A DNA stretch of 32,611 nucleotides from Phycisphaerales bacterium (GTDB taxonomy: Bacteria > Planctomycetota > Phycisphaerae > Phycisphaerales > UBA1924). Below the pieces are notes generated by a model. That model was not told the DNA's origin. It saw only the letters and a list, made by a program, of their open reading frames with translations, and did not search any database. Within the stretch, counting starts at the first letter, position 1; the number at the start of each line of letters is the position of its first letter. Location of the stretch: contig CANJRL010000016.1 of the NCBI GenBank assembly GCA_947476675.1, forward strand, positions 1 through 32,611, written 5' to 3'. Below are positions 10,757-20,950 of the stretch, piece after piece. The translations under genes were made by a program, and so were the position numbers.

Positions 10757-10779
10757 GCGCTGCGGCGCCGCAAAGGAAA

Positions 10780-10806
10780 GCGGGCCCGCGCTGTGCGCGG
10801 GCCCGC
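10780..10806 (-). terminator. strong intrinsic terminator between convergent genes
   Basis: A perfect 12-bp GC stem (10780-10791 with 10795-10806) and a 3-nt loop. On the minus strand it lies 28 nt after the stop at 10835 and is followed by TTTCCTTT. It probably also slows transcription leaving rmuC on the + strand, where no U-run follows. Confidence 0.75.
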
Positions 10807-10834
10807 CGAGGTGATCACGTTTGCTTGCGACCGC

Positions 10835-11536
10835 TTAGCGGCGGCGGCGGAAGCCGGCGACCGCGAGCAGGCCGGCGCCGGCGGCGAAGGCCGGGGCGGG
10901 CATCGGAACCACGACCAGCTGATCCTGGAAAGTGCCGCTGGTGACGCCGTACACGACGCCGCCGTTCCGCAGGCCGGAGCCGACGTAGGTGGCGACGTTG
11001 TTGAAGGCGGTCAGCAGGCTGCCGGTGATGGCCGTGCCGTTGGTGTTCTTGAGGGTCAGCGCCGGGCCGTTGAGGGTCACCGACCCGTTGTAGACGATCG
11101 ACCAGATGGCCATCTGGAAGGCGGCCGCGAAGTCGTTGTTGGCGTTGTTGTTGCCGGTGGCGAACTGCAGGCCGTTGGCCGAGCCGTAGATGTCGCGGAT
11201 CATGTCGGCCTTGGCCTGGCCGATCGCGGTGCCGGGATTCGGCACGCTCTCGACGCCGACGACGTTGTACGACTGGAAGTTCGTGTTGACGAACTGGGTC
11301 AGGTCGGTGCAGAAGGTGGTCTGGACGCCGTTGAGCTGCGAGCCGACCGTGCCGGAGCCGCCGCTGAACTGGTGCAGCAGCTGGCCGGCGAACACGTCGG
11401 ATGAGTTGCCGTTGAGCGTGATCTTGACGCTGCGACCAAGGTTGGTGCCCAGGAACTTCATGTTCACGGTGTCAGCGCTGGCCATGGCGGCAAGACCGGC
11501 GACGGCAGCAACCGCAGAGATCTGACGAATCGACAT
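10835..11536 (-). CDS. secreted PEP-CTERM-like protein with thioester-type Cys/Gln motif (paralog 1)
   Basis: A 233-residue exported protein. The start at 11536 follows AGAGGAT at acceptable spacing and opens a signal peptide (cleavage about 21). The central domain carries FCTDLTQ (Cys76) and AAFQMAIW (Gln141), the arrangement seen in thioester (TED/TQXA) domains, where Cys and Gln form an internal thioester, and in many PEP-CTERM proteins. The C-terminus is a sorting-signal look-alike: VPMPAP, a hydrophobic stretch and RRRR at the very end, a variant of PEP-CTERM. It is clearly paralogous to the protein at 12092-12811. It has its own promoter (11649-11677), a leader of about 105 nt and its own terminator. 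The function is probably attachment or surface structure; this is inference. Confidence 0.8.
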   Translation of the reverse strand: MSIRQISAVAAVAGLAAMASADTVNMKFLGTNLGRSVKITLNGNSSDVFAGQLLHQFSGGSGTVGSQLNGVQTTFCTDLTQFVNTNFQSYNVVGVESVPNPGTAIGQAKADMIRDIYGSANGLQFATGNNNANNDFAAAFQMAIWSIVYNGSVTLNGPALTLKNTNGTAITGSLLTAFNNVATYVGSGLRNGGVVYGVTSGTFQDQLVVVPMPAPAFAAGAGLLAVAGFRRRR

Positions 11537-11554
11537 GTTCACACATCCTCTTCT

Positions 11555-11569
11555 AGCCGGCGACCGGCT
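11555..11569 (-). promoter_or_regulatory. leader hairpin just upstream of the Shine-Dalgarno
   Basis: AGCCGG and CCGGCT pair perfectly around a 3-nt loop, 18 nt before the start codon of the gene at 11536 and directly 5' of its ribosome-binding site. It could protect the mRNA end or affect translation. Confidence 0.4.
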
Positions 11570-11648
11570 GTTCCGTGCCTCCGCGGTCCCACGAGCGCGG
11601 GCACACGGACTCTCCTCGAAATGAATCCCCCTCAATGGGGACAACCTC

Positions 11649-11677
11649 ATTATGTCCTATCGGAGCGGGATTTCCAA
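11649..11677 (-). promoter_or_regulatory. sigma-70-type promoter of the thioester-like paralog 1
   Basis: On the minus strand TTGGAA (11677-11672) and CATAAT (11654-11649) are separated by exactly 17 nt, a near-consensus housekeeping promoter in a locally AT-rich region. The predicted start is near 11642, giving an untranslated leader of about 105 nt. This is the best -35/-10 pair in the window. Confidence 0.65.
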
Positions 11678-11970
11678 CCGTCAGATCCCAAATAACCACC
11701 GATTCGGAGGTCTCTTGAACGAAACTTCATGCTCCGAGGACGCCAGCAGGGGGGTTTTCGCTGTCAATCTGGGTAGTTTGTCTGGAAAGATCAGAAGGGG
11801 AGTGGTCGTTCTAGGGTTTTTACCTGGGTTTGAGCACGATCTCCCCCTGTCTTGGTGTCGCTAGCCCCGGAGCGTGCCGCCAGGCGATACTCCCTCGCCC
11901 GTGGCTGCATGGACATCAGCCCGCTCGGGCAGGTGCGGTCCGGTGTCCGGCGGCCGCCCTCCAAGGAAAA
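11678..11970. other. AT-richer intergenic region
   Basis: This stretch is visibly lower in GC than the genes around it. The short + strand frame across it (from 11652) has poor codon bias and no ribosome-binding site. I see no gene, tRNA or repeat; it probably contains regulatory sequence for the promoter at 11649-11677. Confidence 0.5.
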
Positions 11971-11993
11971 ACGGCGAGCGCGATGCTCGCCGT
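11971..11993 (-). terminator. intrinsic terminator of thioester-like paralog 2
   Basis: A perfect 9-bp stem (ACGGCGAGC with GCTCGCCGT) and 5-nt loop, followed on the minus strand by TTTTT. It lies about 100 nt after the stop codon at 12092. Confidence 0.75.
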
Positions 11994-12091
11994 CCGGGGT
12001 GAGTCCCGTGTGCCAGGGTGGATCCGACGTCCCGATTGCCGCGTGAGGGCGGCGGGAAGTGCGAGCCCGAGGCGGCGCCGAGTCGCTGTCC

Positions 12092-12811
12092 TCAGCGGCG
12101 GCGACGGACGCCCGCCACCACGGTCAGGCCCGCGAAGGCCATCGCGCCCGGGCCGGGCAGCGGGATGAGGAAGATCTGGTCCTGCTGGGTCTCGCTGACG
12201 CCGGCCTCGATGTTCGAGCCGAACGAGGTGGCATTGCGGAACGAGGTGTAGGCCGCGTCGAGGAAGGTGTTGGCCTGGTTGCACACCGCGGCGTTGGCAG
12301 TCGCCTTCAGGGTGCCCGTGTTCAGGTCGAGGCCCGAGAGACCCCGGTTGCCGGCGCTGAAGTCGACCGTCGACTCGTTGGCAATCTCCCAGATGGCCAG
12401 CTGGAACGCGGCGGCGTTGACCGACGAGGCCGAAGAAAGGTCGAACGCCGCGGCGTAGAGCGACCGGATCATGTTGGCGCGGTCGGCGCCCATGCCGGCG
12501 CCGGGGCGCGGGGCGTTCTCCACGCCGGTCATGGTCAGGATCCCGTTGCCGACGTACTGGGTGAGGTCGGTGCAGTAGGTGGTGACGCTGCTGTTGACGG
12601 CGAAGCGGGCGTCGGTGCCGCCGGCCAGCACCTTCCACTTGAGTTGTCCCGCCGCGACGTAGCTGTTGACGCCGCGGACGGTGTCCTGCACCTGCACCGC
12701 CTGGTTGAGTCCGGAGGACACGAACTGCAGGTTCACGGTGCCGGCGAAGGCCGAGGCGCCCGACGCGAGCGCGGCAACGGCGACAGCCACAGAATTGGTC
12801 ATGCTCTTCAT
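12092..12811 (-). CDS. secreted PEP-CTERM-like protein with thioester-type Cys/Gln motif (paralog 2)
   Basis: A 239-residue exported protein, paralogous along its whole length to the protein at 10835-11536. The start at 12811 follows a purine-rich GGGAGAGAG; the signal peptide ends near residue 23. The conserved motifs are YCTDLTQ (Cys80) and AAFQLAIWEIA (Gln137), again the spacing expected for a thioester-type domain. The C-terminus reads IPLPGPG, a hydrophobic stretch and RRRR. The two paralogs share TVN near the mature N-terminus, CTDLTQ, a central block (DMIR/NMIR-SLY-type helix) and the anchor, but differ in loop lengths, indicating an old duplication. Each is terminated separately, so they are probably not one operon. 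Confidence 0.8.
   Translation of the reverse strand: MKSMTNSVAVAVAALASGASAFAGTVNLQFVSSGLNQAVQVQDTVRGVNSYVAAGQLKWKVLAGGTDARFAVNSSVTTYCTDLTQYVGNGILTMTGVENAPRPGAGMGADRANMIRSLYAAAFDLSSASSVNAAAFQLAIWEIANESTVDFSAGNRGLSGLDLNTGTLKATANAAVCNQANTFLDAAYTSFRNATSFGSNIEAGVSETQQDQIFLIPLPGPGAMAFAGLTVVAGVRRRR

Positions 12812-18148: not shown

Positions 18149-20950
<2,802 letters not shown>

Follow-up and report, generated by a model that had tools for sequence, protein, structure and literature searches.

Two paralogous genes and their surroundings

The window, that is the whole stretch of 32,611 nucleotides that was analysed, carries on its minus strand two genes encoding the proteins here called P0001 and P0002. 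The genes, and the signals predicted close to P0001, are the following.

10835..11536, minus strand: P0001, 233 aa, ATG at 11536; proposed exported protein with a single thioester domain (TED); AlphaFold pLDDT 89.9
12092..12811, minus strand: P0002, 239 aa, paralogue of P0001; AlphaFold pLDDT 86.9
11649..11677, minus strand: promoter-like site upstream of P0001, a consensus match only (2 overlapping matches against 0.1 expected in shuffled sequence)
10779..10807, minus strand: terminator-like hairpin of 13 pairs directly 3' of the P0001 stop, one of 5 matches against 1.5 expected in shuffled sequence

The genes are separated by a gap of 555 bases, and their products are 37% identical (86 of 230 alignment columns). 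A AGAAGAGG-like stretch upstream of P0001 was taken as its ribosome site, and both N-termini were judged signal-like by eye, without a program. P0001 contains FCTDLTQ and AAFQMAIW and ends in the tail PMPAP...RRRR; the corresponding elements of P0002 are YCTDLTQ, AAFQLAIW and PLPGP...RRRR. A preliminary description of this DNA had presented the pair as paralogous proteins of exported type, sharing [FY]CTDLTQ, AAFQ[ML]AIW and a P-x-P/hydrophobic/RRRR tail, and had numbered the residues of interest as Cys76 and Gln141 in P0001 and Cys80 and Gln137 in P0002. Both translations bear this out, including the numbering.

The genes near P0001 and P0002 encode RmuC, a SnoaL-like protein and an Mrp/NUBPL-type ATPase, none of which suggests a function for the pair. 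Comparison of the neighbours of family genes at 80 loci gave no functional lead either. The two largest neighbour clusters (80 and 62 loci) contain the family gene itself or face it on the opposite strand, the other clusters are open frames that did not resolve into genes, and the sole neighbour that recurs and was recognised by eye resembles an aminotransferase (13 of the 80 loci). At a distance of a few kb (18149-20950, minus strand) lies the gene of a protein of 933 aa that matches glycoside hydrolases of the MGH1-like/GH63 type.

Predicted fold and distribution of the family

The AlphaFold models (pTM 0.83 for P0001 and 0.82 for P0002) were compared with known structures using VIA-align. 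The first 12 rows for P0001 are all TED structures, with Z-scores of 8.3-11.7 followed by 2.9 for the next row; the first 10 rows for P0002 are likewise all TEDs, with Z 8.3-12.0 and then 3.4. The TED rows for the two models have an rmsd of 3.0-4.5 over 144-169 aligned residues. TED structures that appear for P0001 and not among the P0002 rows, e.g. 5a0n and 5dcq, are not thereby excluded as matches. Foldseek alone, run with the P0001 model, returned nothing at E<=1e-3, the best match being Cpa (E 0.049).

Both models have the same order of elements: a strand ending in the Cys, the second long helix with QxxxW, a third helix and two strands. This is the published TED order and was counted in favour of a TED. 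The link from the third helix to the next strand is short (11 residues in P0001, 7 in P0002), so the beta-sandwich insert of class II TEDs is absent, and neither model has the clear alpha0 helix of class I. As modelled, the domain thus looks like a minimal TED.

Similarity at the sequence level is weak. P0001 scores 18.5 bits (20.4 in the genome scan) against the TED model PF08341, below the cut-off of 22, and P0002 has no match. Within the class, 5 of 150 genomes do encode homologues above this cut-off, with up to 27.6 bits, and matches were obtained at E<=1 for 29 of the 31 members of alignment A1 (best 5e-6) and at E<=0.01 for 35 of the 72 members of alignment A2. TIE_pLS20, a class II TED conjugation adhesin encoded on a Bacillus subtilis natto plasmid, is itself barely above the cut-off with 23.6 bits, so that a low Pfam score need not contradict a TED. 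In a profile comparison of the family with the pLS20 TED, 22 residues around the Cys were aligned, which was not significant. Searches of the PDB gave no match with a single sequence and two chance matches only with a profile. The predicted fold, as given by the top VIA-align rows, together with the motifs and the weak Pfam similarity, indicates that P0001 and P0002 are divergent thioester domains, and the TED identity proposed for them at the outset is upheld.

Relatives of P0001 were found at E<=1e-3 in 54 of 101 genomes (its own and 100 relatives), the best non-self match having an E-value of 2e-50; the motifs noticed in the two genes are therefore not a chance observation. Tandem copies are frequent among these 101 genomes. 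A phylum-wide sample, with few candidates scored per genome, contained the family in 14 of 294 genomes at E<=1e-5. Furthermore, 14 of 200 genomes from the order of a Burkholderiales-titled genome (G504) encode members (L134 and L262-L276; genomes G504-G668). All 15 distinct proteins from this order keep the Cys, the QxxxW and a Q[DN] before the tail, and 11 of the 15 tails read P-E-P; they were found with the A2 profile, which favours carriers of the A2 motifs. No relative of the family was found in viral contigs, nor in plasmids searched by tblastn. A typical Phycisphaerales-like member occurs in a record titled Leptolyngbya sp. PLA1 (QWIH01000059.1, L085), probably a mislabelled planctomycete MAG.

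Candidate TEDs were restricted to Gram-positive bacteria in Walden 2015, and a survey of fibrillar adhesins ties the domain to Firmicutes and Actinobacteria (PMC8286594). Searches of the open literature yielded no paper on a thioester domain in combination with Planctomycetes, PEP-CTERM or exosortase. The expectation that such proteins would be unusual in planctomycetes agrees with the literature examined, but not with their abundance in this lineage, where more than half of the 101 genomes carry them.

The counts given below refer to 167 members, P0001 included, defined as hits at E<=1e-20; 39 of 206 distinct hits lay above 1e-20 and were dropped, some of them matching solely via the tail. 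Alignment A1 consists of 29 loci from the 101-genome search and the two window proteins, and A2 and A3 of 70 of 104 profile hits and the same two proteins. A motif scan found 184 relatives, of which the best 80 were taken; their loci are also part of the 167-member counts. The invariance of A139, F140, Q141 and W145 in A2 is partly by construction, as the scan pattern contained them. Cys76 and Gln204 are also invariant in A2 (72 rows), although both are absent from the pattern.

Conserved residues and the proposed thioester glutamine

The codons of the residues discussed here are the following.

11309..11311, minus strand: Cys76, proposed thioester Cys of P0001, at the end of strand 70-76; kept in 162 of 167 family members
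11114..11116, minus strand: Gln141 of P0001, read here as the Gln of a TQxxPhiW-type motif on helix 131-150 and not as the bond Gln
10925..10927, minus strand: Gln204, proposed thioester Gln of P0001 (QDQL), from conservation and range arithmetic on structure alignments
12572..12574, minus strand: Cys80, proposed thioester Cys of P0002, at the end of strand 75-80
12401..12403, minus strand: Gln137, helix Gln of P0002 (helix 130-145)
12182..12184, minus strand: Gln210, proposed thioester Gln of P0002 (QDQI), from range arithmetic on the 5a0g_A alignment; 5a0l and Cpa are off by one

According to Walden 2015 and Miller 2018, only two residues are universal in TEDs, the Cys and a Gln of the last strand, which stands in a weak PhiQ-zeta-PhiPhi motif. 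The same papers place the Gln of the TQxxPhiW motif on helix alpha2, where it hydrogen-bonds the backbone of the Cys; the thioester does not depend on it. The context of the Cys in the window proteins, FCTD or YCTD, agrees with the TED motif [YFL]C-Phi-zeta on a strand. Both have Thr at Phi, where most family members carry T, I, V, S or A. The counterparts of TQxxPhiW are FQMAIW (helix 131-150) and FQLAIW (helix 130-145), with Phe in place of Thr.

A third conserved element had been overlooked. Just before the tail lies Gln204-Asp205, with the Gln kept in 162 and the Asp in 155 of 167 members, and by DSSP of the models the corresponding FQDQL of P0001 and QQDQI of P0002 are placed two residues before the last strand and not inside it. 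All 15 proteins from the order of G504 have Q[DN] at this place, followed mostly by a hydrophobic residue as in PhiQ-zeta-PhiPhi. The fourth position of FQDQL/QQDQI is a Gln, and L, V, F, M or others in 14 of these 15. That Gln, Gln206, was considered as the partner and rejected; it is kept in 129 of 167 members and replaced in the same 14 of 15.

The position of Gln204 and Gln210 relative to known TEDs was estimated by arithmetic on the aligned ranges, assuming that the last residues are free of gaps, which is usable for the 5a0g, 5a0n, 5a0l and Cpa rows only and not for the other TED rows. Both residues fall exactly on Gln267 of CpTIE (5a0g), and in the P0001 model Gln204 falls exactly on Gln247 of PnTIE (5a0n). 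In both models, Gln261 of SfbI (5a0l) comes one residue before Gln204/Gln210, and so does the thioester Gln of Cpa if this is residue 575. This offset of one, and the DSSP position ahead of the last strand, speak against Gln204/Gln210 as the bond Gln.

The thioester had been placed by the preliminary description between Cys76 and Gln141 (Cys80 and Gln137). Both residues of this pair are highly conserved (162 and 164 of 167 members, P0001 included), and [FY]CTDLTQ and AAFQ[ML]AIW do resemble TED motifs. Gln141, however, sits in the middle of a helix in the AlphaFold model and is the counterpart of the dispensable alpha2 Gln, the published bond Gln being on the last strand (Walden 2015, Miller 2018) and its probable counterpart here being Gln204/Gln210. 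The exceptions within the family point the same way. Cys, Gln141 and Gln204 are all present in 158 of 167 members. Two members without Gln141 (L052 and L186) retain both Cys and Gln204, and Gln141 is kept in four of the five members lacking the Cys, the fifth (L054) having none of the three residues. We regard a Cys76-Gln141 bond as highly improbable, and its assignment as very probably wrong.

A different objection is that the domain has the TED fold and no reactive thioester, the protein serving as structural matrix or coat material and Cys and Gln204 being kept for packing. The fold is apparently viable without the Cys, which is lost in 5 of 167 members (L041, L118, L146, L159 and L054). 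Against this, the thioester positions are occupied by a near-invariant lone Cys and a near-invariant Gln, in the G504 order as well, and Cys and Gln204 are lost together in L041 and L118, which keep Gln141, and in L054, which has lost Gln141 too. L041 and L118 come from two related genomes, where they occupy equivalent places in the array, and their losses are perhaps one event. L146 and L159 lack the Cys and keep both Gln, which argues against strict co-loss. In two further members (L172 and L174), Cys and Gln141 are present and Gln204 was counted as missing; a Gln lies two residues nearer the tail there. We consider a fold without the bond unlikely. The direction of the losses, as read from the aligned sequences, favours Cys76-Gln204, the numbers being small and not independent. 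This correction matters, since mutants and mass tests would otherwise be aimed at the wrong Gln.

Two tandem-array copies without Cys76 and Gln204 in which QxxxW is kept (L112:1568-2224 and L118:1695-2342) appear to be natural thioester-dead paralogues. L172 and L174 are class-level relatives with the end RSQHLIVPEP. The mature part contains exactly one Cys in 99 of 123 clusters and two in 16 of 123; P0002 has a second one, in AAVCNQ. Lys makes up 1.8% of mature residues across the family, an apparent scarcity that might limit self-reaction.

Sorting-type tail, exosortases and possible role

Both proteins end in a tail of sorting type.

10838..10906, minus strand: C-terminal tail of P0001, P211 to RRRR, from the sequence and the tail profile
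12095..12163, minus strand: C-terminal tail of P0002, P217 to RRRR, from the sequence and the tail profile

Each tail starts with P-x-P, continues with about 16 residues that are hydrophobic or small, and closes with RRRR, which is the layout of exosortase substrates. The distance from the candidate reactive Gln to the first Pro of the tail is seven residues in 65 of 119 clusters measured, and 5 to 17 in the rest; a residue of the Gln204 type so close to the tail leaves no stalk. Two exosortases encoded in the same genome score above the cut-offs of PF09721 and TIGR02602. The best or most specific subtype score of both is XrtD, far under the XrtD cut-off, and one of them (L136) is preceded by a gene whose product resembles, by eye, polysaccharide export proteins. 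Exosortases are present in all 101 genomes searched (own and 100 relatives), and their presence can therefore not be correlated with that of the family.

Curated PEP-CTERM models (Pfam PF07589 and NCBIfam) place P0001 and P0002 under their cut-offs, with no match to PF07589. In their genome PF07589 gives 20 matches, the best with 19.3 bits against a cut-off of 20.7. These counts were rejected as evidence on the tails; 13 of 14 control genomes match too, and a profile of the family's own tails was used for this reason. In the genome of P0001 and P0002 (2.7 Mb, the only one searched), it gave 42 matches at E<=0.01, the window pair included, and 29 of 30 inspected loci have an open reading frame with such a tail end. 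Four matches are clustered on one contig, C38, which carries the tail loci L234, L245 and L252.

Handling of the tail by another system, such as a myxosortase-like or rhombosortase-like enzyme, or simple membrane anchoring, would leave the thioester part of the reading intact. The only NCBIfam tail match of P0002 is MYXO-CTERM TIGR03382, with 14.2 bits against a cut-off of 15.85, and TIGR03901, also MYXO-CTERM, is matched at E<=1 by 9 of the 31 A1 members. The genome, however, encodes its two exosortases above cut-off, 11 of the 15 relatives from the order of G504 have P-E-P tails, and the relative L134 exceeds the PF07589 cut-off with 27.9 bits. From the exosortases and the tails, we judge a non-exosortase route to be rather improbable. 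The PEP-CTERM-like character ascribed to the tails early on is sustained, as their layout and the two genomic exosortases fit sorting of the PEP-CTERM type.

The domain resembles class I/II TEDs (SfbI, Cpa, CpTIE, BaTIE; PF08341) in its predicted fold (Z 8.3-12.0), the Cys motif on a strand, the QxxxW motif on a helix and a Gln adjoining the last strand. Unlike the Gram-positive proteins, P0001 and P0002 are single-domain proteins of diderm hosts, with no match to a Pfam isopeptide or ester stalk domain and no LPXTG, and their candidate reactive Gln lies seven residues ahead of the sorting-type tail. TIE_pLS20 shares the Cys motif, as YCID, and its Cys mutant is inactive according to the pLS20 paper, but it differs in having 767 aa and a predicted CnaB-type stalk. 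An internal Cys-Gln thioester is the chemistry shared with complement/alpha2-macroglobulin proteins, which are described as carrying a contiguous CxEQ motif; the fold of Cpa-type TEDs is unrelated to complement (Walden 2015). A thioester of the complement type was rejected for the window proteins, where CxEQ is absent and the Cys of both lies in CTDL.

Taken together, it is likely that P0001 and P0002 are stalkless thioester proteins of diderm bacteria, sorted by an exosortase, with the thioester between Cys76 and Gln204 (Cys80 and Gln210). Very probably they carry the same self-formed reactive bond as the covalent adhesins of some Gram-positive bacteria, combined with a different anchoring tail. 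Thioester residues beside an exosortase-type tail, in 167 members from planctomycete-titled records and from the order of G504, would bring TED chemistry into diderms. Haft 2006 describes exosortase substrates as a very diverse group that shows little homology to proteins already known, and the family would give them a concrete activity that can be tested by mass. The same paper proposed that exosortases cleave at the P-motif and transfer the protein to an unknown nucleophile, in association with exopolysaccharide.

The analysis itself establishes the homology, the predicted fold, the conservation, the tail and the presence of exosortases; bond formation, tail cleavage and covalent attachment are extrapolated from known TEDs and the exosortase proposal. 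Each protein would be exported with one TED and an exosortase-type signal at its C-terminal end. After export and folding, Cys76 (Cys80) and Gln204 (Gln210) would form the internal thioester spontaneously, releasing ammonia, and Gln141 (Gln137) of the helix would support the backbone of the Cys together with Trp145 (Trp141). One of the two exosortases would cut off the hydrophobic RRRR tail a few residues past the reactive Gln and deliver the protein to the surface of the cell or into the polysaccharide matrix. There, the thioester could acylate the amine of a Lys or a hydroxyl of a sugar, which would tie the protein covalently to a polymer of the matrix, to an adjacent cell or to a substrate; this choice of targets is a guess. 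An adhesin role would follow by analogy with the Gram-positive proteins.

More tentatively, the proteins may be two-ended cross-linkers, with an exosortase joining the newly made C-terminus to a carrier, either polysaccharide or lipid, and the thioester, built on a Gln that lies only seven residues upstream, acylating a second polymer. This is possible, if doubtful. Were it true, each molecule would act as a covalent staple within the extracellular matrix of diderms, and a defined chemistry could be assigned to exosortase substrates.

A role of the family in the matrix is plausible, since a PEP-CTERM protein of Aquincola, PepA, promotes flocculation and bound exopolysaccharide (PMC9850573). 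PepA is likewise exported with an exosortase-type tail, and its overexpression raised bound over soluble exopolysaccharide; it differs in that the abstract of that paper mentions no thioester. In one family member, L006, the match to the PepA model is limited to residues 175-232, which comprise the last strands and the tail.
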